Assembly (NCBI RefSeq): GCF_004310425.1
Contig: NZ_SIUB01000006.1
Location: forward strand, 1-64,000
Source of the DNA: Hansschlegelia quercus
GTDB taxonomy: Bacteria; Pseudomonadota; Alphaproteobacteria; Rhizobiales; Methylopilaceae
Direction of reading: 5' to 3'
Length of the DNA stretch: 64,000 nucleotides
The notes under the pieces are model-generated. The model searched no databases and had not been told where the DNA came from. It worked only from the letters and a program-made list of their open reading frames with translations. This document shows, one piece after another, positions 33,279 through 47,523 of the stretch; position 1 is the stretch's first letter, and the number at the start of each line of letters is the position of its first letter. Made by a program: the position numbers and the translations under genes.

Positions 33279-33302
33279 CGTTATAGTTTGACGGATAGAA
33301 CG
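33279..33302. promoter_or_regulatory. ModE-type operator (Mo-box), copy 1
   Basis: CGTTAT, 12 bases, AGAACG, one mismatch from the palindrome CGTTAT-N12-ATAACG. It ends 36 bases before the DUF2478 start codon. Spacing equals that of the other three copies and, from memory, that of the E. coli modA operator. Confidence 0.6.
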
Positions 33303-33338
33303 CAGCGGCATCACGCCTTGTGAGTTCAAGCGGTTTCG

Positions 33339-33884
33339 ATGACTGAACGGATTATCGCTCTCCAGGGCGCGGCGAGTTTCGTCGTGCAGACGCGGCTCGC
33401 CTCGTTCGCGCGGGCGCGCGCAGCGGAAGGGCTGCGGGTCGTCGGCGTCCTTGAGGAATTCGGCGGATCGATCGCAACTGGCTGCGCAGGACGCGCGCTG
33501 CGCGACCTGAAGACAGAGCGTCGTCATATGATCGGCCAGGATCTTGGGAAGGGCTCCCTCGCCTGTCATCTCGACGCCTCGGCTGTCGCCGAGGCGTGCC
33601 AAGACGTTCTGAACGCTATCGAAGCTGGCCCTGATGTCGTGGTGCTGGCGAAATTCGGAAAGCTTGAGAGCGCTCGGAGCGGCCTGATCGACGCCTTCGC
33701 TGCCGCGGCCGCCCGAAATCTGCCGGTCGTAACGTCCGTAGCTCCTGTCTTTGCGGAAACATGGCAGCGCTACTCAGCGCCCCTGGCGCGCTTCGTCCAG
33801 CCTACCGACGCAGCTCTTGAGACTTGGTGGCGGGCCTTAACAGAAGAACGCGGACCCGCCCGGCGCTTCTATTCCGTCGGATAA
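33339..33884 (+). CDS. DUF2478 protein, putative nucleotide-binding molybdenum-linked protein
   Basis: 181 residues. The N terminus IIALQGAASFVVQTRLASFA sits where a P-loop occurs in relatives but lacks the GxxxxGKT form. The middle VVGVLEEFGGS and the C-terminal DVVVLAKFGKLESARSG and TSVAPVFAETW match DUF2478, whose genes are frequently found next to molybdenum genes. Function is unknown. It is followed by a ModE-like regulator and preceded by a Mo-box, which supports a molybdenum link here. No membrane segment. Confidence 0.75.
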   Translation: MTERIIALQGAASFVVQTRLASFARARAAEGLRVVGVLEEFGGSIATGCAGRALRDLKTERRHMIGQDLGKGSLACHLDASAVAEACQDVLNAIEAGPDVVVLAKFGKLESARSGLIDAFAAAAARNLPVVTSVAPVFAETWQRYSAPLARFVQPTDAALETWWRALTEERGPARRFYSVG

Positions 33885-34077
33885 CTACCAGACGCAACTT
33901 TCGACTGCGCTTAGCGCCTGCGCTCAACGCTGCGGCGACGGCGGACAGTCGCGCTGCTGAGCTCGTGCGGAGCGAGGCTGGCGACCTTCTGAGAGGTCGG
34001 TAGGGGCCTTCGGCGTGGCGATCTGCGCCGTCATTTGTTAGGCTGACGCTCCGCCAACCCGGCGGGGCGGACGCTCC

Positions 34078-34461
34078 ATGGCCTCTCTCAGCATCAGGAT
34101 CGATCTCGACCCGGAAGGCCGCATCGGTCCAGGCAAGATCGAACTTCTCGAAGCCATTCGTCGCGAGGGTTCGATCTCGGCCGCCGGCCGCGCGATGGAT
34201 ATGTCCTATCGTCGCGCATGGGACCTCGTCGATGAGACGGCCAGGATCTGCGGCCAGTCGGTCGTGGCATCACAGGCGGGCGGAAAGCATGGCGGCGGAG
34301 CTCGGCTGACCGAGTACGGCGAAGAGCTGATCGCTCGCTATCGGGCTATCGAAAAAGCCGCACAGAAGGCTGCGCGCACGGAGTTGCAGGCCCTCGAATC
34401 CGGAAGGCGTCGACCCGCCTCCGCGACCGACGTCAAGGTCCGAGCCAAAGGCGCGGCTTGA
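34078..34461 (+). CDS. ModE-type winged-helix regulator without molybdate-binding domain
   Basis: 127 residues. The N-terminal 110 residues match the ModE DNA-binding domain: GPGKIELLEAIRREGSISAA near residue 20 and AMDMSYRRAWDLVDE near residue 40 form the helix-turn-helix, and GGKHGGGARLTEYG is the wing. The usual C-terminal Mop/TOBE domains (about 130 residues) are absent, so it cannot sense molybdate by the known route. It lies 193 bases after the DUF2478 gene and among four Mo-box-like sites, which it or a full-length ModE elsewhere would bind. Confidence 0.85.
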   Translation: MASLSIRIDLDPEGRIGPGKIELLEAIRREGSISAAGRAMDMSYRRAWDLVDETARICGQSVVASQAGGKHGGGARLTEYGEELIARYRAIEKAAQKAARTELQALESGRRRPASATDVKVRAKGAA

Positions 34462-34516
34462 ACGGATTCTTCCGCGGACAAACGACCGCCGCCTGCCCTG
34501 CTCGCCAACGCCGACG

Positions 34517-34909
34517 TCAGTTTTTGAGGATGGCGACGGGCATATTCGCCGGCGCGTCCGAGAGCGACTGAGCGAGATCGTCCGCTCCGGACCTGTTGAG
34601 CGCATAGGAAGCTTCGAAGCCGTCGGGCGTGCTGATCGTCAGGATCATCGTGTCGCGATCTGTGCTGGCTTCGATCGTCCAGCCTCCGACCGGAAACACC
34701 ATCCTCAGGCTGTCGTCGCGGTGGCGCAGACGCAGCGCGGTGCGCACTGCGCGCGGGAGAGACATCGCGAGCTGCCCGGCGCATTCGCCGGGCAGGAAGA
34801 GGTTCGCGTCCTGCCCGTCGGCTCCGCGGAAACAGACCCGGATCGCCGCGCCGTCCTCAGAGACGTCGATCGCGTCCAAGGCCTCGGCAGTTATCGTCTG
34901 GTCCGCCAT
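34517..34909 (-). CDS. Hypothetical protein behind a Mo-box
   Basis: 130 residues from the ATG at 34909 (MADQTITAEALDAIDV). Earlier ATGs at 34921 and 34933 are possible, but the latter lies inside the Mo-box. No ribosome site is strong at any of them. The sequence is a soluble alpha/beta protein with FLPGECAGQLAMSLPRAVRTAL in the middle and a C-terminal strand-rich part. No family is recognised. It is downstream of the formate dehydrogenase gene on the same strand, 106 bases after its stop, with the operator between them, so it is probably its own molybdenum-controlled unit. Confidence 0.6.
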   Translation of the reverse strand: MADQTITAEALDAIDVSEDGAAIRVCFRGADGQDANLFLPGECAGQLAMSLPRAVRTALRLRHRDDSLRMVFPVGGWTIEASTDRDTMILTISTPDGFEASYALNRSGADDLAQSLSDAPANMPVAILKN

Positions 34910-34921
34910 TCGGTCGATCAT

Positions 34922-34945
34922 CGCTATATTCATACAGATATAACG
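34922..34945. promoter_or_regulatory. ModE-type operator (Mo-box), copy 2
   Basis: CGCTATAT at 34922-34929 and ATATAACG at 34938-34945 form an inverted repeat, CGCTAT-N12-ATAACG, with one mismatch. It lies 12 bases upstream of the ATG at 34909, downstream of the formate dehydrogenase stop. Best match of the four when the longer half-site is counted. Confidence 0.72.
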
Positions 34946-35015
34946 TTCGACGTCCACATGAGGTCCGAGGTCGCAGACGGCAGGCGGCGAACCGCGCCTG
35001 CCGTCACCAAGGCGA

Positions 35016-36221
35016 TCAGTTCGCCTTGCGGAAGCCCGGCGTAGTGTCGACGTCCTTGGTCGAGTCGCCGCTCGCGTAGGAGCGGGCGCCGACGCCGGCA
35101 AGCTTGCCGCCCTGGACGATCAGATACTCGTCGCGGATCGGACGACCCTCGAAGTAGCACTCCAGGATCTCGCGCGTGCCCGCGGCGTAGCGGGCCTGGG
35201 CCGACAAAGAGGTGCCGGAGATATGCGGCGTCATGCCGTGATGCGGCATGGTCCGCCACGGATGGTCCTTCGGCGCCGGCTGCGGGAACCAGACGTCGCC
35301 GGCGTAGCCCGCGAGCTGGCCGCTTTCGCAAGCCCGCACGATCGCGTCGCGGTCGACGATCTTGCCGCGCGCGGTGTTGATGATGTAGGCGCCGCGCTTC
35401 ATCTTCGAGATCATCTTCTCGTCGAAGAGGTTCAGCGTCTCGGAATGCAGCGGGGCGTTGATCGTCACGACGTCGCAGACCTTGACCATGTCCTCGACGC
35501 TATCGTGCCAGGTCAGGTTCAACTCCTTCTCGACGGCCTCCGGCAGGCGGTGGCGATCGAAATAGTGAAGGTGGACGTCCCACGGCTTCAGCCGGCGCAG
35601 CACCGCGAGCCCGATACGGCCGGCGGCGACAGTGCCGATGTGCATGCCTTCGACATCGTAGGAACGAGCGACGCAGTCGGCGATATTCCAGCCGCCCTTG
35701 TTCACCCAGTCATAGGACGGCAGATAGTTGCGGACCTGGCTGACGATCATCATCACCACGTGCTCCGCGACGCTGATCGAGTTGCAGAAGGTGACTTCCG
35801 CGACCGTGATCCCGTGCTCGACCGCTGCGTCGAGATTGACGTGGTCCGAGCCGATGCCGGCGGTGAGCGCGAGCTTCAGCTTGGGCGCCTTGGCGATGCG
35901 CTCGGCCGTCAGATAGGCCGGCCAGAACGGCTGCGAGATGACGACCTCGGCATCATGGAGATGCTTCTCGAGCTCGGAGTCCGGGCCGTCTTTCGACGAG
36001 GTGACGATCAGCTCGTGGCCGTTCGCCTCGAGATATTTGCGCAGGCCCAGTTCTCCGGAGACCGAGCCCAGCAGTTCGCCCGGGTTGAAGTCGATGCCCT
36101 TGGGGGTCGGCAGCTTCTGTCCGTCCGCGTAATGCGTGATCTTCGGAAGATCATCGCGGGCATAGGATTTCGGCATTCCATCGATGGGATCGTCGTAGAG
36201 AACACAGACGACTTTAGCCAT
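35016..36221 (-). CDS. fdh: NAD-dependent formate dehydrogenase, metal-independent
   Basis: 401 residues, the length of the well-studied enzymes from Pseudomonas sp. 101 and other methylotrophs. Catalytic residues line up one position later than the Pseudomonas numbering: Asn147 in TFCNSIS, Arg285 in NTARGKIVD, Gln314 in WFPQPAP and His333 in MTPHISG. The NAD motif is VAAGRIG near 199, and Asp222 in FDRHR selects NAD over NADP. It oxidises formate to CO2 with NADH production, the last step of C1 oxidation, and needs no molybdenum or tungsten. A LysR gene lies 255 bases upstream on the same strand. Confidence 0.97.
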   Translation of the reverse strand: MAKVVCVLYDDPIDGMPKSYARDDLPKITHYADGQKLPTPKGIDFNPGELLGSVSGELGLRKYLEANGHELIVTSSKDGPDSELEKHLHDAEVVISQPFWPAYLTAERIAKAPKLKLALTAGIGSDHVNLDAAVEHGITVAEVTFCNSISVAEHVVMMIVSQVRNYLPSYDWVNKGGWNIADCVARSYDVEGMHIGTVAAGRIGLAVLRRLKPWDVHLHYFDRHRLPEAVEKELNLTWHDSVEDMVKVCDVVTINAPLHSETLNLFDEKMISKMKRGAYIINTARGKIVDRDAIVRACESGQLAGYAGDVWFPQPAPKDHPWRTMPHHGMTPHISGTSLSAQARYAAGTREILECYFEGRPIRDEYLIVQGGKLAGVGARSYASGDSTKDVDTTPGFRKAN

Positions 36222-36476
36222 TTCCTCTAATCCTTTTAAATTGAGAGAAGAGGAGACGCCGGCAAGGGCGCGCTTCGCCTATCCCCGCAGCCATTGAGGC
36301 CGCCGAGTGAAGCTCGCCAGACAGTCCATGCGCTACCCGTATTTGCCGAGCGCTTCCCCAGATCTTGCCCGTACCGACATTCTTCAGCGTCGGCTTCATG
36401 TCGGGCGAGACGATGCTCGCCGCTCTGGTCGCGGAGCGCCAATGAAAGTCTTGGAAGACCTGATAGGCGTCGACTA

Positions 36477-37397
36477 TCAGCCGGACGCCGCATGCGCAGT
36501 CGCGGGCCCAGCTTCAATGTCGACGGTGAGCGCTGAGGCGAGCAGCGCGTCCGCCATCGGCGATCGCGGCTCCCGGTCTGAAAGGACAAGCCCCACCGCC
36601 TGGCTGTGGACGGGATCGACGAGGTCGATCGCGACGAGATCGGGCTCGGCGTGAAACACATAGAAGAACGTGTGCGGGACGATCCCCGCCCATCCGCCGT
36701 GGCGAAGATGCGAACAAACGCCCAGGAAGGAGTTGCTGACCACCTGCGGCCTGATCTCAACTCCGATCGCCGCGGCGACGGAATTGACGATGCGGCGGTT
36801 CTGCATGTCTTCGCTCAGAAGACAAAGCCGCTCCTCCGCCGCCTCTCTCCAAGTTACGCTCCGGCGGCTCGCGAACCGATGATCGCGCCGGGCGACGAAG
36901 ACGTAGCGCTCGCGGTAAAGCGGCAGCCGACGAACGCGTTCGAGCGGCTCGTTCTCGAGATATGTCATCCCGCCGTCGAGTTCGAAGGCGTCGAGGCCGT
37001 CTTGAATGGCGCGGGACGTTAGCGATCGCACTTCGACGCTCGCCATCGGGTTTGCCGCGCTGAACCTCGCGGTGACGAAGGAGATCGCCGGCATCGCCGC
37101 GGGGATCACCCCGAGTTTGAGCACGCCGGTCAGCCCCTCCCGCGCGCCTGAGAGATCGTCTTTCAGGCTGTTGTAGTCCGTGAGGATCTGGCGACCCCAG
37201 GCCAGGACCTTCTCTCCCTCGGCCGTCAGCCCGACGAAGCGTTGTCCACGCACGACAAGCCGCGCGTCCAGATCCTCTTCGAGCTTGCGGATCGCGGCGG
37301 AGAGCGTCGGCTGCGCGACGTTGCAAGCGTCCGCCGCTTTCGCGAAATGCTTTTCACGAGCGAGCGTGACAAAATAGGAGAGATGACGAACGAGCAT
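36477..37397 (-). CDS. LysR-family regulator, probably of formate dehydrogenase
   Basis: 306 residues. The N-terminal helix-turn-helix (about 3-60) reads HLSYFVTLAREKHFAKAADA and QPTLSAAIRKLEEDL, followed by a substrate-binding domain with LKLGVIPAAMPAIS. The tail contains AATAHAASG-like low complexity. LysR genes of this type often sit next to formate dehydrogenase genes. It precedes fdh on the same strand and its own promoter region carries a Mo-box, so it could relay molybdenum status to fdh. The effector is unknown, formate being the obvious candidate. Confidence 0.85.
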   Translation of the reverse strand: MLVRHLSYFVTLAREKHFAKAADACNVAQPTLSAAIRKLEEDLDARLVVRGQRFVGLTAEGEKVLAWGRQILTDYNSLKDDLSGAREGLTGVLKLGVIPAAMPAISFVTARFSAANPMASVEVRSLTSRAIQDGLDAFELDGGMTYLENEPLERVRRLPLYRERYVFVARRDHRFASRRSVTWREAAEERLCLLSEDMQNRRIVNSVAAAIGVEIRPQVVSNSFLGVCSHLRHGGWAGIVPHTFFYVFHAEPDLVAIDLVDPVHSQAVGLVLSDREPRSPMADALLASALTVDIEAGPATAHAASG

Positions 37398-37428
37398 GCG
37401 AGACCCCGGCCGCGTCGGCGGCGTTGAT

Positions 37429-37452
37429 CGTTATTCCTTGATGGATATAACG
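37429..37452. promoter_or_regulatory. ModE-type operator (Mo-box), copy 3
   Basis: CGTTAT-N12-ATAACG, an exact inverted repeat of the inner hexamers. It lies between the lysR start (31 bases away, minus strand) and the amidotransferase start (50 bases away, plus strand), so it can act on both. Confidence 0.7.
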
Positions 37453-37502
37453 AACAGAAAGTCACCGCCATTTTGTGGCGTTGCGCTGATCGGAGGTCAA
37501 CG

Positions 37503-38249
37503 ATGACGAAACCAGGTCGACGCGCCGTCGCGATTCGTCACGTGGCGTTCGAGGATCTCGGCCTTCTGGCGCGCGTCCTCGACGCCGGAGGCTGGGAGAC
37601 GGCGTATTGCGAAGCGGCGACGGAGGATCTCCGTCATCGGTCGATCGTCGACGCTGACCTGATCACCATGCTCGGCGGCCCCATCGGCGTCGGGGACGAA
37701 GCCGGCTACCCTTTCCTGACGCACGAAAAGAAGCTCATCGAACGGCGCTTGAGGCGCGGTCTTCCGACGCTTGGGATCTGCTTGGGAGCGCAGCTCATGG
37801 CGGCGGCCCTCGGAGCCCGCGTCTATCGCGGAGCCGGGAAGGAAATCGGATGGGGCCCGATCTCGTTGACCGAGGACGGAGCCCGGTCCGCCCTTGCCCC
37901 GCTCGGCAGGGCCGAGGCGCATGTGCTGCACTGGCATGGCCATACGTTCGACCTGCCGAAGGACGCGACCCGCCTCGCATTCAACGAGAACTACGAAAAC
38001 CAGGCGTTCTCCTATGGCCGAGACGCCCTGGGGCTGCAGTTCCATCTTGAGGCCGGCCCCCTCGAACTCGAGGAATGGTATGTGGGCCACGCCGAGGAGC
38101 TCGCACGCTCCGGACTATCCGTTCGTTCGCTACGGGAAAAAGGACGCGGCCGCAGCGAGACCGCGGGAACCGCCGCGAGGGACGTTTTCTCCGGGTGGCT
38201 CAGCAGGATAGCCGCTGACGGCGCTCGCCAGGCGCTTGCCGTCGTGTGA
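37503..38249 (+). CDS. Class I glutamine amidotransferase (GMP synthase-like)
   Basis: 248 residues from the ATG at 37503 with GGAGG upstream. The catalytic triad is Cys93 in GICLGAQ, His181 and Glu183 in LQFHLE. HWHGHTFDLP near residue 143 is typical of the YfeJ/GMP-synthase-like group. It should hydrolyse glutamine or a gamma-glutamyl amide, but no synthetase partner adjoins it. It shares a Mo-box-containing promoter region with the lysR gene. The final 25 residues are less conserved. Confidence 0.85.
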   Translation: MTKPGRRAVAIRHVAFEDLGLLARVLDAGGWETAYCEAATEDLRHRSIVDADLITMLGGPIGVGDEAGYPFLTHEKKLIERRLRRGLPTLGICLGAQLMAAALGARVYRGAGKEIGWGPISLTEDGARSALAPLGRAEAHVLHWHGHTFDLPKDATRLAFNENYENQAFSYGRDALGLQFHLEAGPLELEEWYVGHAEELARSGLSVRSLREKGRGRSETAGTAARDVFSGWLSRIAADGARQALAVV

Positions 38250-38378
38250 GCGGACGCGGGTTCCGGTTTGCTGCGCCGCATTCGATCTCGCAATGCGCCG
38301 CTATATATTACGCCTCTGCCGCCGGCGCTTTCTTGATTGCGGGCTCGCATCCGGATGGCTGAAGAGAAGGACGATCCC

Positions 38379-39431
38379 ATGTTCGCTTGCACCGGATACG
38401 CCACAGAATCCGCCGACCAGCCGCTCGGCCCCTACGGCTTCGAGCGCCGCGATGTCGGGCCGACGGACGTTCGCATCGAGATCGCCTATTGCGGCGTCTG
38501 CCATTCCGATCTCCACACCGCCCGCAACGAGTGGAAGAACACAGTCTATCCGTGCCTGCCCGGCCACGAGATCGTCGGGAAGATCTCGGAGGTCGGCCCC
38601 GAGGTGACCAAGTTCAAGGTCGGCCAAGTCGCGGGCGTCGGCTGCATGGTCGAAAGCTGCCGGGAGTGTGCGAGCTGTAAGGAAGGCCTTGAGCAATATT
38701 GCGAAAACGGCTTCGTCGGGACTTATAACGGCGTCGAGAAGCAGACCGGCAGGAACACCTTCGGCGGCTATTCCAAGGCAATCGTGGTCGATCAGGACTT
38801 CGTGCTGCGCATCCCCGAGAACCTCGAGCTCGCCGCCGTCGCCCCTCTGCTCTGCGCCGGCATCACGACCTATTCGCCGCTCCGGCACTGGAAGGTCGGG
38901 CCGGGCATGAAAGTCGGCATCGTGGGCCTCGGCGGGCTTGGCCACATGGGCGTGAAGCTCGCTCACGCGATGGGCGCGCATGTCGTGCTGTTCACGACAT
39001 CCCCCGGCAAGGTCGAGGACGGCAAGCGCCTCGGCGCCGACGAGGTGGTGATCTCGAAGAACCCGGACGAGATGGCGGCGCACGCCGGAAGCTTTGACTT
39101 CATTCTCGACGCGGTCGCGGCCGCCCACGACATCAACGAATATCTCAATCTGCTGAAGCGCGACGCCACGCTATGCCAGGTCGGAGCGCCGGAGGATCCG
39201 CTGGCGGTCGCGGTCTTCAGCCTGATCTTCAAGCGCCGCAACTTCGCGGGCTCGCTGATCGGCGGCATCGCCGAGACTCAGGAGATGCTCGACTTTTGCG
39301 GCGAGCACGGCATCACCTCGGACATCGAGATCATCGAGATGGCCGAGATCGAGAACGCCTATGCCCGCATGCTGAAGAGCGATGTGAAGTACCGCTTCGT
39401 CATCGATATGGCGACGCTTGAAGCCGCCTGA
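38379..39431 (+). CDS. Zinc-dependent NADP aldehyde reductase/alcohol dehydrogenase, YahK/CAD type
   Basis: 350 residues from the ATG at 38379, with AAGGA seven bases upstream; the longer frame is not needed. The catalytic zinc motif is YCGVCHSDLH (Cys41) with GHEIVG near 62; structural zinc cysteines are in ESCRECASCKEGLEQYC. The NADP motif is GLGGLGHMGVKLA near 180. This subgroup reduces a wide range of aldehydes with NADPH. It stands alone. A CGCTATAT half-site with no second half lies about 80 bases upstream. Confidence 0.92.
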   Translation: MFACTGYATESADQPLGPYGFERRDVGPTDVRIEIAYCGVCHSDLHTARNEWKNTVYPCLPGHEIVGKISEVGPEVTKFKVGQVAGVGCMVESCRECASCKEGLEQYCENGFVGTYNGVEKQTGRNTFGGYSKAIVVDQDFVLRIPENLELAAVAPLLCAGITTYSPLRHWKVGPGMKVGIVGLGGLGHMGVKLAHAMGAHVVLFTTSPGKVEDGKRLGADEVVISKNPDEMAAHAGSFDFILDAVAAAHDINEYLNLLKRDATLCQVGAPEDPLAVAVFSLIFKRRNFAGSLIGGIAETQEMLDFCGEHGITSDIEIIEMAEIENAYARMLKSDVKYRFVIDMATLEAA

Positions 39432-39462
39432 CCCACCGACGCCATCAAGTCGCTGGCGGCGG

Positions 39463-40167
39463 TCAGTCGCCGGCGGCGGAGGCCACCAGGACGGGCTTGG
39501 CGCGATAGAGGTCCGGCATAAGCCGTTTCAGCGCCGCAACCTTCGGCAGGTCGTTGGTCGCGATGTACGGATAGGTCGGGTTCTGCGTCAGGAAGTCCTG
39601 GTGGTAGGCCTCGGCGGGGTAGAACGCCCTGCCCTGCTCGATCGTCGTCACGATCGCCGCGTCGAAGGCGCGCGCCGCGCTGAGCTGCGCCACATAAGCC
39701 TTCGCGACCTTCGCCTGCTCGGGCGTCGTCGGGAAAATCGCCGAGCGGTACTGCGTTCCGTGATCGGGCCCTTGGCGATTGAGCTCGGTCGGGTCATGCG
39801 CCACCGAGAAGTACACCTGCAGGATATGGCCGAGCGAAACCTTCTTCGGATCGAAGGTGACGCGCACGGATTCCGCGTGGCCGGTGTCGCCACCGCTGAC
39901 CTGCTGATACGACGCGGTCCGCTGCTCCCCGCCCTCATAACCGGAGACGGCCGCGGCTACGCCCGCGACGTGCTGGAACACGCCCTGCACGCCCCAGAAG
40001 CAGCCGCCGGCAAGCGTGATGGTCTCGAGCCCCGCGCCTGCGGGCTCGTCGAGCGTGGGCGCTGGGATCGCGCGACCCTCCTCCGCCGAGGAATACGTCG
40101 CCGTCAGCGCGGCGCCGAGCGCGAGCGCTGCGGCGAGGCCGAGCTCCTTAATCGATGAAGCGGTCAT
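39463..40167 (-). CDS. msrA: Peptide methionine-S-sulfoxide reductase MsrA, exported
   Basis: 234 residues. A signal peptide (about 1-28) precedes the MsrA domain with the active site GGCFWG (Cys56). GGDTGHAESVRV and YFSVAHDPTELNRQG are the usual substrate and acidic segments. It is the only Cys in the protein, so there is no internal resolving Cys and recycling needs an outside thiol or redox partner. It repairs methionine-S-sulfoxide in periplasmic proteins. The msrB gene lies 237 bases upstream on the same strand. Confidence 0.95.
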   Translation of the reverse strand: MTASSIKELGLAAALALGAALTATYSSAEEGRAIPAPTLDEPAGAGLETITLAGGCFWGVQGVFQHVAGVAAAVSGYEGGEQRTASYQQVSGGDTGHAESVRVTFDPKKVSLGHILQVYFSVAHDPTELNRQGPDHGTQYRSAIFPTTPEQAKVAKAYVAQLSAARAFDAAIVTTIEQGRAFYPAEAYHQDFLTQNPTYPYIATNDLPKVAALKRLMPDLYRAKPVLVASAAGD

Positions 40168-40404
40168 CGGTCTTCCCTCTCAGCCAAACATAGATGCGAA
40201 GCTTAAACGCCGAGCGGGAACTCGATCTCGCATACTCGGTCGGTAACTCGCCCGACAAGCGCTTGTAGAGCCGTTACGCGGGTGTCCGATTACCGTGGCC
40301 AGCGTTCACGCATAACCTTCCTTCGTCTCGGCGCCATCGAACGTTACGCGTGCCCCACGCCGGCGGCGTTTCATCATCGCCACACCAGGCGGAGGTCACG
40401 CTCC

Positions 40405-40896
40405 TCAGGCGGTTGCCGGCTTGAACGTCATGGCGACGCCGTTCATGCAGTAGCGCAGGCCGGTCGGCTTCGGGCCATCGTCGAAGACGTGGCCGAGATG
40501 CCCGCCGCAGCGGGCGCAGTGCACCTCCTCGCGCGTCATGCCCCAGGTGCTGTCGCTGCCCTGGCCGAGCGCGCCCTTGATCGGCGCCCAAAAACTTGGC
40601 CAGCCCGTACCGCTGTCGAATTTGGTCTCGGAAGCGAAAAGGTCCCTGTCGCAGCCGGCGCAGGCGAAGCGGCCGCGCCGGTGCTCGTCGTTGAGGGGGC
40701 TCGTGAAGGGCCGCTCGGTGCCGGCGTTGCGTAGGACCGTGAATTGGCCCGGCGTCAGCCGCGCCTTCCACTCGGCCTCGGCGTACGCCACCTCGAACTT
40801 GCCCGACGCCGCCGTCGCCGGTCGGCGGAAGAACGCCAATCCCATCGCCGTCAGTCCGGCTGTGGCTGCAAGCGCGCCGCGTCTTGTCGTGGCCAT
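40405..40896 (-). CDS. msrB: Peptide methionine-R-sulfoxide reductase MsrB, exported
   Basis: 163 residues. The N terminus (TTRRGALAATAGLTAMG) looks like a Tat or Sec signal. The zinc-binding pairs are Cys79/Cys82 (CAGC) and Cys127/Cys130 (CARC), and the catalytic Cys150 is in LRYCMNG. GTGWPSFW and GGHLGHVFDDGP are family hallmarks. Acts on methionine-R-sulfoxide, complementing the nearby MsrA outside the cytoplasm. Confidence 0.95.
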   Translation of the reverse strand: MATTRRGALAATAGLTAMGLAFFRRPATAASGKFEVAYAEAEWKARLTPGQFTVLRNAGTERPFTSPLNDEHRRGRFACAGCDRDLFASETKFDSGTGWPSFWAPIKGALGQGSDSTWGMTREEVHCARCGGHLGHVFDDGPKPTGLRYCMNGVAMTFKPATA

Positions 40897-41311
40897 GTCG
40901 ATCCCTTCCTCAAAGCTATCGTTTCGAGGAGTACGAACTCACGCGTCGGTATTCTTACAGGAACAAGGCAGGGTCACGGGTTCGTGATCGACAGCTATTC
41001 GGATGCGACGGCGGATCGTCGAAGCGGAGTGAGCACTCACGCAAATTGGACAGCGCGATCGTAATCCATTCCCCACGAAATCATCCGCGGATCGATCCGG
41101 ATCGAGGTCGGCTCGCAAGAGGAACATAGGTCGTCGCTCATCGTTGGCGGTTCGAGAAGGTCGTCCCTGACGGCCAGCCGCTATACCCGAGGAGAGCCGC
41201 CGATGTTCCTGGCGTCGCCGCAGATGTCGAGCTTCATCACCGGCGAGGCGCTTCCTGTGATCGGCGGATACACCGACCGCTGACCTCGTCCAAGGAACGA
41301 GCTGCCGTCGC
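40897..41311. other. Interval with an SDR gene remnant
   Basis: 415 bases upstream of msrB. No intact gene was found. Its right part carries the remnant of a short-chain dehydrogenase listed separately. The msrB promoter should lie at its left end. Confidence 0.5.
41167..41283 (+). pseudogene. C-terminal remnant of a short-chain dehydrogenase
   Basis: The last part of the frame ends FLASPQMSSFITGEALPVIG GYTDR and a TGA at 41281-41283. That is the closing segment of SDR proteins, where FLAS...ITGE...VxGG is the rule, yet no Rossmann motif or catalytic Tyr-x-x-x-Lys lies upstream. The upstream end of the homology is not clear. It looks like the residue of a deletion or rearrangement. Confidence 0.6.
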
Positions 41312-43042
41312 TTATCCCTTTTGATGTCCGATCGCCCAGACATAGGTCGCCAACGCGTCGACCTGGTCTTCGGAAAGATCCGCGCCGCCCATCGGCGGCA
41401 TCGCGCCGGGATGCTGTTTGGGTTCGGACACGCCGGTCACGATGGTCTTCTTCAGCCCTTCGAGACTCCCATCGCTCCACTCCCATGCGCCTGACGTCAG
41501 CGACGGCCCGATCGGGCCGCCACCAGCGTCGCCGCCGTGGCATCCGGCGCACGTTCCGCCGGCTTCTTCGCCGCGGAAGATGCGGCCGCCGAGCGCGACC
41601 TTCTCTGGCGTGGCGCCCGAGGGCGTCGGGAGCTTCACGCCCGCGTTGGGATCGATGCCTTCAGGCGGCGCCGCCTGGGCCGACGCGCTAGCCGCTGGAG
41701 CCGCGGGAGCGGCTTCGATTGCAGCGGACGGGTTCCCCTTGTACGTCACGCGCCAGATGCGGCCGGCCTGATCGTCGGAAATATAGAGGGAGCCGTCAGG
41801 GCCGACCGCGACGCCGGCTGGACGATGAGCCGCTCGCCCTGGCTCCTTGATCTTCCCGGCAAAGCCGTCTGCGAAGATCACGTAGTCGCCGTTCGCCTTG
41901 CCATCCTTCAGCGGCTGGAACACGACGTTGAATCCGTCCTGTGGAGAAGGCGCCCGGTTCCACGAGCCGTGGAACGCCACGAAGGCGCCGCCCTTGTAGG
42001 CGCTTGGGAACTGGTCCCCGAGATAGATCTCCATGTCGTTCGGCGCCCAGTGCGCGGGAAAGGCGGCGACCGGCGGACGCTTGTCCGCGCATGGGCCGAC
42101 CTTCTTGCCGCCGTCGCCGCCATATTCCGGCGCAAGCACGAGCTTCTTCTGGGTCGGATCGTAGTAGCAATAGGGCCATCCGAAATCGGCTTCCTTATCG
42201 ACCAGGACGACCTCCTCCGATGGCAGTTCTGCGCCCTGTCTGGGCGTGTAGAGCTTGCCCCAGCTCTCTGCGAGCTGGTCTCGACCGTGCTGCGTCGCGA
42301 ACAGCCGCCCTTCGGCGTCGAAGGCGAGGCCCTCGCCGTTCCGGAGCCCGGTGGCGTATCGCTCCCTGGGAGAAAACGTCTGGCCCGTTTTATTCGCGTC
42401 GTAGCGCCAGACGCCGGCCCGGGTCTCCAGCTCGACGCAGGGATCGGCGCCTTTGATCCCGGTCATCCGGTTCTTCGGCTGGCAGCTGTTGGTGGCGGAG
42501 CCGACCCCAATGAACAGCTCGCCATCCTTCGAGATCGCAAAGGGATGCATCGGATGATCGCCTACGTTCGGGATGCCCGAAACCACGACGTCGGGCTCGC
42601 CCCTCGGCGCGACGCCGTCTGCTGGAAGAGCGAAGCGGACGATCTTGTCATCCATCTCCGCGTAGAGCTTGCCATCGTGGATTGCGAGGCCGGTGCCGCC
42701 GGCGGACCCCTTCGCGGCGGTTCCTCCGAACCGCTCGACGGTTTCCGCATTGCCGTCGCCGTCCTTGTCCTGCAGGGCGACGAGGAAGCCGGCGTTCGGC
42801 TCGGGCTTATCCTTGTAATAGACGCCGCTCCAATTGTTGACGTAGACGACCCCGTTAGGCGCGACCGCAAGATGACGCGCGTGGCCGATCCCGTCGGCGA
42901 ACACGCTGACGCTGAAGCCCGGGGGAAGAGTGACCGCGTCCTTTGCGCCCTCCTGTGCGAACGCCGACGAACATGCGGCGAGCCCGACGGCGCACGCCGC
43001 CAGCACAGCCGCGCCTCCCTCGAGTTTCGGACGAGATGTCAT
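41312..43042 (-). CDS. Periplasmic sorbosone/sugar dehydrogenase-like beta-propeller with C-terminal cytochrome c domain
   Basis: 576 residues. A signal peptide (about 1-29, with LAACSSAFA) is followed by a beta-propeller of the PQQ-type glucose/sorbosone dehydrogenase family (FSVSVFADGIGHARHLAVAP, RNGEGLAFDAEGRLFATQHG, GWPYCYYDP). After an Ala/Pro linker near 455-480 comes a single-haem cytochrome c domain with CAGCHGGDAGG near 505 and a likely Met ligand in GAMPPMGG. It would oxidise a sugar or alcohol in the periplasm and pass electrons onward. Cofactor PQQ is inferred from the family. It follows the SMP-30-like gene by 86 bases. Confidence 0.87.
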   Translation of the reverse strand: MTSRPKLEGGAAVLAACAVGLAACSSAFAQEGAKDAVTLPPGFSVSVFADGIGHARHLAVAPNGVVYVNNWSGVYYKDKPEPNAGFLVALQDKDGDGNAETVERFGGTAAKGSAGGTGLAIHDGKLYAEMDDKIVRFALPADGVAPRGEPDVVVSGIPNVGDHPMHPFAISKDGELFIGVGSATNSCQPKNRMTGIKGADPCVELETRAGVWRYDANKTGQTFSPRERYATGLRNGEGLAFDAEGRLFATQHGRDQLAESWGKLYTPRQGAELPSEEVVLVDKEADFGWPYCYYDPTQKKLVLAPEYGGDGGKKVGPCADKRPPVAAFPAHWAPNDMEIYLGDQFPSAYKGGAFVAFHGSWNRAPSPQDGFNVVFQPLKDGKANGDYVIFADGFAGKIKEPGRAAHRPAGVAVGPDGSLYISDDQAGRIWRVTYKGNPSAAIEAAPAAPAASASAQAAPPEGIDPNAGVKLPTPSGATPEKVALGGRIFRGEEAGGTCAGCHGGDAGGGPIGPSLTSGAWEWSDGSLEGLKKTIVTGVSEPKQHPGAMPPMGGADLSEDQVDALATYVWAIGHQKG

Positions 43043-43128
43043 GACCGGTCTCCAGGAGGCTTTGCGCCTCTGTTGGTCGGGACGCTCGACGCAGGATCAG
43101 GCGTCGGAGGCTTCAACGATCAAAAACG

Positions 43129-44097
43129 TCAGTTCTTCGGCAGCGGCATCGAACGCAGGCGGAAGGCGTCCGGCGTCTTCCCCTTCTTGTCGGGGTCGCT
43201 GAGAGAGGCGAGCTGGCCTTCGGCCACCCAGATTGTGTCGCCCGCGACTGCAACCCCCGTCGGCCCGGCGAATTTCTGGAGAGTCTCGACCTTTGCCTCG
43301 TCGCCGGCGACCGTGACGCGGTCCAGCGTGCCGCCGCCCTCCACCATCAGGAAGCCGCCCGGTATCGGCTTCAAGCCATCAGGATGGGTGAGAGGACGCG
43401 AGGTCTTGAGCTTCGTGATCTTGCCGGGGGCGCCCATCTTGACGTCGATCCGGAACATCTCGCCCGACTGGTAGGTGTTGACGTAAAGAGCGCCATCGTC
43501 GCCGAAAGCGATCCCGTCGAGACCGCCCTTCAGCGCGTCGTCTTGGACGAATACCTCGAGATCTTTGGCGTCCGGCTTCAGCCGCAGGATCTGAGGCGCG
43601 GCGGTGTTGGTCACGTAAAGCGAGCCGTCCTCGCCGAGCGCAAAGTCGTTCGCGATTGCGGGTCCGCCGGGCAGCCGGGCGCTCACCTTCGGCGTGCCGC
43701 TCTTCAGATCGAAACCCTTGACCCAGGCGCCCTCGACCGCGCTCGGCCCCTTCAGCCCGATTGCGGATGCGTCGTTCGAAGCGACCCACAGCGTGCCGGT
43801 CTTCTCGTCCGCCAGCACGCCGAAGGTGGAGCGCGTGTCGTGCTCGCCGGGCTTGAAGAACGGGACCGGCGTGGAGCCGACCGGAGCCACGCGCAACACG
43901 CCGCCATCGGTGATGCTGCTGACGAACAGGGTCCCGTCCGCGAGCGAGGCTACGCTTTCCGGGAAGGGCGAGCCCGCCGGCAGCGTGACATCGCTATCCG
44001 CCGCCGCAGCGGTCGCCAGCCCGATTGCTATCGCCGCAGAGGCGACAATGCGCCATGTCGCTCGTCCTGACGCAAAAGGACCGCTGCACAACGTCAT
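43129..44097 (-). CDS. Exported SMP-30/gluconolactonase-like beta-propeller
   Basis: 322 residues with a signal peptide (about 1-34, ending ATAAAADSD). Repeated blades such as SLADGTLFVSSITDGGVLRV, LGEDGSLYVTNTAA and FGDDGALYVNTYQSG mark a six-bladed NHL/SMP-30 fold. It may open a lactone made by the neighbouring dehydrogenase, which lies 86 bases downstream on the same strand. GGAGG precedes the start. A Mo-box-like palindrome starts 22 bases upstream of the ATG. Enzyme activity is inferred, not shown by any catalytic motif I can verify. Confidence 0.8.
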   Translation of the reverse strand: MTLCSGPFASGRATWRIVASAAIAIGLATAAAADSDVTLPAGSPFPESVASLADGTLFVSSITDGGVLRVAPVGSTPVPFFKPGEHDTRSTFGVLADEKTGTLWVASNDASAIGLKGPSAVEGAWVKGFDLKSGTPKVSARLPGGPAIANDFALGEDGSLYVTNTAAPQILRLKPDAKDLEVFVQDDALKGGLDGIAFGDDGALYVNTYQSGEMFRIDVKMGAPGKITKLKTSRPLTHPDGLKPIPGGFLMVEGGGTLDRVTVAGDEAKVETLQKFAGPTGVAVAGDTIWVAEGQLASLSDPDKKGKTPDAFRLRSMPLPKN

Positions 44098-44119
44098 CGC
44101 TGCCTCCTCGAACTGTTTT

Positions 44120-44143
44120 CGTTATAATTTCCTGAACATAGCG
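44120..44143. promoter_or_regulatory. ModE-type operator (Mo-box), copy 4
   Basis: CGTTAT-N12-ATAGCG, one mismatch to the palindrome; the ATAGCG half is the complement of the CGCTAT half in copy 2. It begins 22 bases upstream of the SMP-30-like start codon, overlapping where RNA polymerase would bind. Confidence 0.58.
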
Positions 44144-44297: not shown

Positions 44298-46484
<2,187 letters not shown>

Positions 46485-46610
46485 TCATCAGGCTAGGCGC
46501 AGGAGTTCGCCGGGCGCGCAAACTCCGTTGCGAATGGCCCCTCTCAATCCCTTGGGCACGTCTTAGCAGCCGCCTCTCATTATTTTAATTCTGATTTCCT
46601 GATCGATGCG

Positions 46611-46625
46611 ATAAGCTGAGCTTAT
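46611..46625. promoter_or_regulatory. LysR-type dyad at the oxyR start
   Basis: ATAAGC-TGA-GCTTAT is a perfect dyad containing the T-N11-A pattern of LysR-type sites (T46612, A46624). It overlaps the oxyR start codon at 46624, so it suits autorepression. Confidence 0.5.
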
Positions 46626-47523
46626 GTCGAATCTGACGCTGAAGCAGTTTCGCTATTTCGAGGCCCTGACCCAGCATGGCCATTTCGGCCGCGCTTCAGA
46701 GGCCTGCGCGATCACCCAGCCCGCCCTGTCGATGCAGATCAAGGCGATGGAGGAGGAATTGGGAGCTGCGCTCTTCGAGAGGAACAGCCGCGAAATTCGG
46801 CTGACGAGTTTCGGCGCGGAGGTCGCGCTGCGAACGCGGAGCATCCTGCAGGCGCTCGATGATCTGGACGGCTATGCGCGCGCGTCCCGCGGCGGTTCGA
46901 CTTGGAGATTGCGCATCGGCGTCATCCCGACGGTCGCTCCCTACTTGCTGCCGAGCCTCGTCTCAGACTTGACCCGGCTTCATGAAGGTCTCGACCTCCA
47001 TGTTCGCGAGACGCTGACGCCGAAGCTCGTTCAGGAGCTGAACGAGGGACGCCTCGACATGGCGATCGTGGCCTTGCCGGTTTCGGAGCCGACCCTCACC
47101 GAGATGGTCCTGTTCACCGAGGATTTCGTGTTTGTTCGGCCTCGCAAGGATGAAGGGAAGCCCGTCCCCAGCCGCGAGGCCCTCCGTGAGATGCGCTTAC
47201 TTCTCCTGGAGGAAGGTCATTGCTTCCGCGAGCAGGCGTTGGCGTTTTGCAACAAGAACGTAAACGCCGCGAAGCCTCGTGATCTGTTGGACGCAAGCTC
47301 GCTGTCTACGCTTGTCCAGATGGTCGAGGCTGGTCTCGGCGTCACCCTGATCCCGGAGTTGGCCATTCCTCTTGAGACGCGCTCCGCCGCTGTCTCAATC
47401 GCCCAGTTCGCCGAGCCGAGACCAACCCGAACCATCGGCATGGTCTGGCGCAAGAGCAGCCCGCTGGCGGCGCGATTTACGGAGATTGCCGACTTTGTCG
47501 GTAAATCAGTCGCGGCGCTGTAG
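46624..47523 (+). CDS. oxyR: Peroxide-sensing LysR regulator OxyR
   Basis: 299 residues. The helix-turn-helix region is LKQFRYFEALTQHGHFGRAS and QPALSMQIKAMEEELG. The regulatory domain holds Cys200 and Cys209 in EEGHCFREQALAFC, the disulfide pair that senses H2O2 in E. coli OxyR (199 and 208). LLEEG precedes the first Cys as usual. It lies 154 bases from katG on the opposite strand, the standard arrangement. Confidence 0.95.
   Translation: MSNLTLKQFRYFEALTQHGHFGRASEACAITQPALSMQIKAMEEELGAALFERNSREIRLTSFGAEVALRTRSILQALDDLDGYARASRGGSTWRLRIGVIPTVAPYLLPSLVSDLTRLHEGLDLHVRETLTPKLVQELNEGRLDMAIVALPVSEPTLTEMVLFTEDFVFVRPRKDEGKPVPSREALREMRLLLLEEGHCFREQALAFCNKNVNAAKPRDLLDASSLSTLVQMVEAGLGVTLIPELAIPLETRSAAVSIAQFAEPRPTRTIGMVWRKSSPLAARFTEIADFVGKSVAAL

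Follow-up and report, generated by a model that had tools for sequence, protein, structure and literature searches.

Comparison with known ModE systems

Among the described isozyme switches that are keyed to a cofactor are those of the B12 element with a B12-free reductase and of NikR with an Fe-hydrogenase, in which the presence of the cofactor is predicted to keep the isozyme that does without it switched off (PMC545781, in part). For Rhodobacter capsulatus, it is stated in parts of two articles that molybdenum (Mo) represses the Mo-free nitrogenase under control of the ModE-like MopA and MopB (PMC6925177, PMC7294313), and in one of them that these ModE-type proteins repress anfA and modABC through Mo-boxes (PMC6925177). 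Here, we analysed a window of 64,000 nucleotides from Hansschlegelia quercus (NCBI RefSeq assembly GCF_004310425.1, contig NZ_SIUB01000006.1, positions 1 to 64,000 of the forward strand), in which four predicted ModE boxes lie around the genes for a short ModE and for a metal-free NAD-dependent formate dehydrogenase (fdh). We consider it likely that these sites are operators of the local short ModE, which would repress Mo-free stand-ins for as long as Mo or the Mo cofactor suffices, and would release them upon shortage.

The motif of the sites, CGYTAT-N12-ATARCG, equals the E. coli ModE consensus published as ATCGNTATATA-N6-TATATANCGAT (PMC545781, in part), and an earlier note on this DNA had given the E. 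coli modA operator the same 12-base spacing. The palindrome and the 12-base spacer are thus common to the window and to the E. coli ModE/modABC operator, whereas the window ModE has no molybdate-binding TOBE domain (Pfam scan) and the modABC genes of its own genome have no site. As with MopA/MopB in R. capsulatus, where Mo-boxes stand before anfA, the activator gene of a Mo-free isozyme, a box stands here before the LysR-type gene that precedes a Mo-free isozyme; unlike there, the target is a formate dehydrogenase, the ModE is short, and the own modABC is unboxed. The B12 element and NikR switches follow the same logic, with a different metal or cofactor, regulator, and enzyme. Moreover, the short ModE of Agrobacterium tumefaciens (ModE-S) reportedly responds to Mo cofactor status, is cotranscribed with an upstream gene, and controls modABC. 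The window protein resembles it in being a DNA-binding domain alone and in its probable cotranscription with an upstream gene, though its boxes are found at Mo-free enzymes rather than at modABC.

Predicted ModE boxes in the window and the genes beside them

The four boxes are given below with their scores from a position weight matrix (PWM), whose training set comprised every box with no more than one mismatch in 80 fdh loci of relatives (81 boxes, chance matches included).

33279..33302, predicted ModE box 1 (CGTTATAGTTTGACGGATAGAACG), 36 base pairs (bp) 5' of the DUF2478 start, one mismatch, PWM 23.9
34922..34945, predicted ModE box 2, 12 bp from the chosen start of an open reading frame (ORF) of 130 amino acids, exact, PWM 38.2 (top score)
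37429..37452, predicted ModE box 3, 31 bp from the LysR start and 50 bp from the amidotransferase start, exact, PWM 32.1
44120..44143, predicted ModE box 4, 22 bp 5' of the SMP-30-like gene, exact, PWM 26.9

The inverted repeats that the earlier note had seen at these four positions are real. A pattern scan of the window for CGYTAT-N12-ATARCG, which the note had taken to fit all four, gave exact matches at 34922, 37429, and 44120, with 33279 deviating by one mismatch (AGAACG). Against CGTTAT-N12-ATAACG, the 37429 site is exact and the other three have one mismatch each, as had been said, and in a palindrome test with CGNTAT-N12-ATANCG three of the four are exact and one has a single mismatch. 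Exact boxes were absent from 100 dinucleotide shuffles of the window (mean 0.00), while boxes with at most one mismatch averaged 0.15 per shuffle (maximum 1), close to the 0.14 per 64 kb that had been estimated beforehand. None of the 100 shuffles reached four, and chance is excluded as the source of the sites. All four are intergenic, given the accepted start codons of a mechanical ORF list, and as previously described are 12 to 50 bases from a start; for the 130-amino-acid ORF the start is a choice, there being in-frame ATGs both beside and inside the 34922 box. From this distance, the boxes probably cover core promoters; a sigma-70 promoter scan returned no matches. On sequence grounds, the reading of these sites as ModE-type operators is well supported.

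The genes adjoining the boxes are as follows.

33339..33884, forward strand, DUF2478 gene (PF10649, 136.8 bits), first gene of a likely DUF2478-modE operon
34078..34461, forward strand, short ModE of 127 amino acids, DNA-binding domain alone (TIGR00637, 98.2 bits, cut-off 98.5)
34517..34909, reverse strand, ORF of 130 amino acids downstream of fdh, function not assigned
35016..36221, reverse strand, fdh, metal-free NAD-dependent formate dehydrogenase (NF005750, 712 bits, cut-off 329, residues 1-385)
36477..37397, reverse strand, LysR-type regulator directly before fdh (PF03466, PF00126)
37503..38249, forward strand, class I glutamine amidotransferase, divergent from LysR (NF005458, 286 bits, cut-off 250)
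41312..43042, reverse strand, glucose/sorbosone dehydrogenase-like protein with a cytochrome c domain (PF07995, PF13442)
43129..44097, reverse strand, SMP-30/Vgb-like beta-propeller, probably exported (PF24684 and PF08450 under cut-off, PF20067 and PF01436 just over)

The ModE-type gene that had been placed amid the sites is indeed there and is the sole ModE match in the genome, its TIGR00637 score rising to 98.5 bits when neighbouring residues of the frame are included. From its domain content, we describe it as a short ModE, not a full-length one. Since box 33279 precedes DUF2478 and modE comes next on the same strand, the short ModE probably controls its own DUF2478-modE operon. DUF2478 and ModE genes are also adjacent on one strand in two other loci (L036 and L059), with the gene order reversed relative to the window. 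The SMP-30-like gene is likely the first in an operon with the cytochrome c dehydrogenase gene.

In the window fdh, a domain scan found 2-hydroxyacid dehydrogenase domains and no molybdopterin oxidoreductase domain, and as judged by these domains the protein is a metal-free enzyme rather than a Mo enzyme. That the enzyme is metal-free had been overlooked when the controlled genes were said not to be a known set; because the fdh is metal-free, the boxed genes become a plausible set of Mo-free stand-ins instead of unrelated genes. The 130-amino-acid ORF, which has no Pfam match even at an E-value of 10, was matched in 4 of 81 genomes including its own, one of the matches being a remnant downstream of fdh in the sister genome G063. 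A homologue of the amidotransferase is found near fdh in one of the 80 loci (L046).

The box before LysR-fdh in relatives

The best 80 of 141 loci around relatives of the window fdh (1.51 Mb, hereafter the named set) held 27 exact boxes and 54 with one mismatch at a spacer of 12, as opposed to 0-2 and 2-14, respectively, for any other spacer between 6 and 19. At least 58 of these loci have LysR ahead of fdh and in the same orientation. For the 58 in which LysR is directly before fdh with enough upstream DNA, a box was sought within 300 bp of the LysR start, and its mismatch counts need no training (PWM scoring, for its part, was repeated with each locus left out). Here, an exact box was found in 11 loci, one with at most one mismatch in 24, and one with at most two in 31. 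The controls at up to one mismatch gave 0-4 loci for spacers 7-11 and 13-17, and none either inside LysR or for the reversed motif; at up to two mismatches these were 0-12, 6, and 3, respectively. In the 31 loci, the box ends 18 to 161 bp from LysR, and a strong box starts farther away, 524-751 bp before LysR, in Paraburkholderia and Caballeronia (L018-L020, L023, and L024) and in Methylobacterium (L034 and L040). Carriers of the LysR-fdh box include Methylobacterium, Bosea, Hyphomicrobium, Paracoccus, Pandoraea, Collimonas, Paraburkholderia, and Pseudomonas, and the box recurs across Alpha-, Beta-, and Gammaproteobacteria.

Pseudomonas gingeri has one box 81 bp before modA and a second before LysR-fdh, and the former ties the motif to ModE. 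On an Azospirillum B510 plasmid, a single box is followed in the same direction by a ModA-like protein (SBP_bac_11), DUF2478, LysR, fdh, and NifQ. Three plasmid-borne fdh copies without LysR in front, two from Methylocystis and one from Paracoccus, have no box above 8.6 (4/81 plasmid records examined). Across 36 chosen fdh genomes, the exact boxes number 55 against 24 for the reversed control, and for this reason single exact boxes far from fdh are weak evidence.

Boxes before the other genes in relatives

A scan of 91 loci for sites scoring at least 15 within 300 bp of a gene placed a box before ModE genes in 10 of 24 rows, before DUF2478 in 3 of 8, and before SMP-30-like genes in 3 of 7 (two of these in one Beijerinckia genome). 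In the sister species G059 (L190 11251-17769), there is a box before DUF2478, and two more are near a TonB-dependent receptor whose cluster includes an FecCD permease, a binding protein, ModC-like matches, and a TOBE domain, which makes this boxed cluster a candidate outer-membrane molybdenum uptake system. These counts bear on the possibility that ModE has a working operator at LysR-fdh alone and that the boxes of DUF2478, the 130-amino-acid ORF, and SMP-30 have another role or none. That would be compatible with the repression we propose and would fit both the narrow occurrence of the 130-amino-acid gene (3 of 80 other genomes) and the ModE homologues of sister species (L189, L011, and L190), directly upstream of which no box was found. 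Yet the top-scoring box of all (38.2) precedes precisely that gene, and boxes do recur before DUF2478 and SMP-30 homologues; we regard so restricted a role as unlikely.

Two further observations concern boxed genes in relatives. In Methylobacterium sp. E-045 (L139 3418-3789), an ORF of the avidin family starts 20 bp from an exact box, and in Beijerinckia (L136 2151-4010) a gene with a thioredoxin/redoxin domain, whose DsbD-type membrane part is under cut-off, is divergent from a boxed ModE.

Co-occurrence of ModE and fdh

Within the genus (13 genomes), ModE is found in all five genomes with fdh, one of them having only an fdh fragment, and in none of the eight without (Fisher p 0.0008, for related genomes that are not independent events). 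The ModE matches in the five score 66 to 99.7 bits and are 0.6 to about 6 kb from fdh, while the other eight genomes do not exceed 43.3 bits. Apart from the three sites of H. quercus, single copies of CGNTAT-N12-ATANCG are found at the LysR-fdh promoters of G059 and G068, and one more in the fdh-less G064; G061 and G063 have fdh but no such site. The ModE-fdh island of G063 (L191) looks decayed, with its ModE match spread over two frames, the N-terminal part of fdh missing, and a partial match to the 130-amino-acid ORF adjacent. In G059 (L190 8861-10066), the fdh frame contains one in-frame TAG, yet its promoter box is strong (34.6).

The order set, another 44 genomes from the order that together contain 50 fdh loci, overlaps the named set in G061 (L011), G070 (L074), G242 (L039), G299 (L047), and G444 (L036). 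Among its LysR-fdh loci, a box scoring at least 15 was found in 10 of 12 with ModE in the genome versus 0 of 5 without (p 0.003), two of the ten being also in the named set. At thresholds of 15, 18, and 20, the real sequence gave 13, 9, and 8 of the 50 loci, and the reversed-sequence control 6, 3, and 2. We rejected a general association of ModE with fdh genes, as the LysR-less loci have no convincing box (3 of 33 with a score of at least 15 in the order set). In the named set, for which ModE was searched in 49 of 80 genomes, 29 of 38 loci with LysR and ModE had a box within 800 bp when up to two mismatches were allowed, as did one of four without ModE (p 0.06).

Another regulator, for example LysR itself, might instead bind the sites, with the ModE gene nearby by coincidence. 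LysR-type regulators often bind their own promoter, the box does stand before the LysR gene, and the named set gives no significant association between box and ModE. However, LysR-type sites usually hold T-N11-A, whereas the present motif is the ModE consensus and is found before P. gingeri modA and before ModE genes (10/24 rows); moreover, none of the five order-set LysR-fdh loci from ModE-less genomes has a site of at least 15. We therefore give this explanation scarcely any credence.

Genome-wide sites and the molybdenum side of the genome

In the whole 3.58-Mb genome, the only exact sites are the three in the window. Those with one mismatch are 33279 and six others, and because the reversed motif is nearly as frequent (9 versus 10 in all with at most one mismatch), the ones outside the cluster carry little meaning. 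We rejected these six as members of the regulon on that frequency; the best-looking of them (C2:118347), the only one examined, is inside a TonB-receptor ORF. On the Mo side, the genome encodes an FdsA-type formate dehydrogenase (TIGR01591, 942 bits), an FdnG-type one, two FdhF/YdeP-family proteins, MsrP (408 bits, cut-off 207), and modABC, and the L104 match in the Mo-domain search is under every cut-off. The FdnG-type gene (C17, about 100.6-103.8 kb; L107 5653-8793) has an in-frame TGA, which suggests selenocysteine.

No box was found around the Mo-formate dehydrogenases, MsrP, or modABC, the best PWM score being at most 5.4 in 3 to 13 kb each, compared with 23.9 to 38.2 at the four window sites. 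Enzymes of the xanthine-oxidase family were not searched for, though the genome scan leaves no exact box for any of them. As far as examined, then, the boxes mark the Mo-free side of the genome and not the Mo side. The earlier note had proposed ModE operators of a local molybdenum regulon and expected sites at modABC and at Mo-enzyme genes. Operators around a ModE gene have held, with the published consensus and the P. gingeri modA box in their favour, but Mo-enzyme and modABC targets have not, as no site was found around the genome's own modABC, Mo-formate dehydrogenases, and MsrP. Of the three outcomes that the note had named as jointly refuting, the lack of a modABC site was observed, and random positions throughout the genome were not, exact sites being confined to the window.

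The same survey speaks to the direction of control. ModE can act both ways and activates some E. coli Mo-enzyme operons, and it may be that the sites are ModE operators from which genes are activated when Mo is present; the LysR-fdh boxes of some relatives, 100-161 bp before the LysR start, would allow this. The main target, fdh, nevertheless needs no Mo, the window boxes are 12-50 bp from their starts, and the examined Mo-enzyme loci, which would profit from activation, are unboxed. Activation seems very unlikely to us.

The proposed switch

With repression by the short ModE as the preferred reading, the locus would work as follows. While Mo or its cofactor is sufficient, ModE would occupy the boxes, probably over core promoters, and would shut off its own DUF2478-modE operon together with LysR-fdh, the 130-amino-acid gene, and the operon of the SMP-30-like and cytochrome c dehydrogenase genes. 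Under Mo shortage, ModE would be released, the cell would make LysR and the metal-free NAD-formate dehydrogenase, and formate oxidation could proceed independently of the FdsA-type and FdnG-type Mo enzymes encoded elsewhere. By analogy, this would be a metal-keyed isozyme switch like that controlling the Mo-free nitrogenase. In this scheme we infer ModE binding, a metal response, repression rather than activation, the signal to which ModE answers (Mo cofactor or molybdate), the operon structure, and what LysR and the targets other than fdh do.

Several observations weigh against this reading. The own modABC (C7) is without a box (best PWM 3.0), and the non-fdh targets have no agreed function. 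Of the 58 LysR-fdh loci, 27 have no box within 300 bp even when two mismatches are allowed, and in H. plantiphila, the closest named relative, the LysR-fdh site is weak (PWM 12.9-13.8). In the order set, the association with ModE has p values of 0.095, 0.009, and 0.018 at thresholds of 15, 18, and 20 when the LysR condition, a restriction chosen post hoc, is lifted, and six of the 50 loci score at least 15 in the reversed-sequence control, three of these being among the 12 with LysR and ModE. The link between box and ModE in the named set is not significant (p 0.06-0.64, with 0.31-0.64 for stricter settings), and 9 of its 38 LysR and ModE loci lack a box even within 800 bp. Finally, Pseudomonas sp. 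7P_10.2_Bac1 (L071) has no real ModE match, yet has a weaker box (17.5) before LysR-fdh; this box is at the usual place and looks as if decaying.

Other genes of the cluster

The remaining features between boxes 3 and 4 are listed here.

38289..38312, weak candidate box 5, upstream of the alcohol dehydrogenase gene, PWM 14.0
38337..39431, forward strand, zinc alcohol dehydrogenase, Ahr-like but under the cut-off of that model
39463..40167, reverse strand, MsrA, Mo-free methionine sulfoxide reductase (TIGR00401, 172.8 bits), with an apparent signal peptide as judged by eye
40405..40896, reverse strand, MsrB (TIGR00357, 166.2 bits), with an apparent twin-arginine signal by eye and no box of its own

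A box precedes homologues of the alcohol dehydrogenase in three of five loci (L036/L195, L050, and L053, with scores of 17.6-17.7; not L059 and L017), and in L036/L195 one box is common to ModE and the alcohol dehydrogenase. Homologues of MsrA or MsrB with at least 40% identity are found in 11 of 80 fdh loci, a count with no control set, and a box before MsrB in one of nine rows (a Bosea homologue, 59 bp upstream). Placing the window MsrA and MsrB under box 4 was rejected as unproven, as there is an intervening stretch of some 415 bases and neither gene has a box. The thioredoxin/redoxin-type proteins of Beijerinckia could feed electrons to exported Msr enzymes. Adjoining the box 4 operon are KatG-like and divergent OxyR-like genes (window 44298-47523, named by eye), and katG is annotated near fdh on a Methylocystis heyeri plasmid as well.

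A widespread Mo-sparing programme, in which one ModE (in the window the short form, which within the genus is found only alongside its target) swaps Mo enzymes for Mo-free stand-ins, is a tentative extension that we rate at somewhat less than an even chance. In it, the metal-free fdh would replace Mo-formate dehydrogenase and exported MsrA/MsrB would replace MsrP, while the cytochrome c sugar/aldehyde dehydrogenase and the zinc alcohol dehydrogenase would perhaps replace Mo oxidoreductases, and DUF2478 would take part in sensing or supplying Mo.

Meaning of the proposed ModE-fdh link

A literature search by title and start of abstract found no report linking ModE to metal-free formate dehydrogenase, though 'ModE' is inseparable from 'mode' in such a search and a prior mention is possible. 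The ModE-type sites described here are real and recurrent and would form a regulon that is known in kind, with a main target that is new as far as searched. Metal-free formate dehydrogenase is much used in biocatalysis, and to our knowledge it is rarely explained why bacteria with faster Mo-dependent enzymes keep it. The recurrent ModE operator offers a testable answer, namely that the metal-free formate dehydrogenase is the low-Mo isozyme. It has long been reported that the formate dehydrogenase made by methylotrophs, among them Pseudomonas sp. 101 and Mycobacterium vaccae, differs according to whether Mo is present, and we know of no regulator of this change. If the proposed switch is true, ModE would supply that missing regulator for Proteobacteria, short ModE proteins would gain targets beyond Mo uptake, and isozyme switching by ModE would reach from nitrogen fixation into carbon metabolism.

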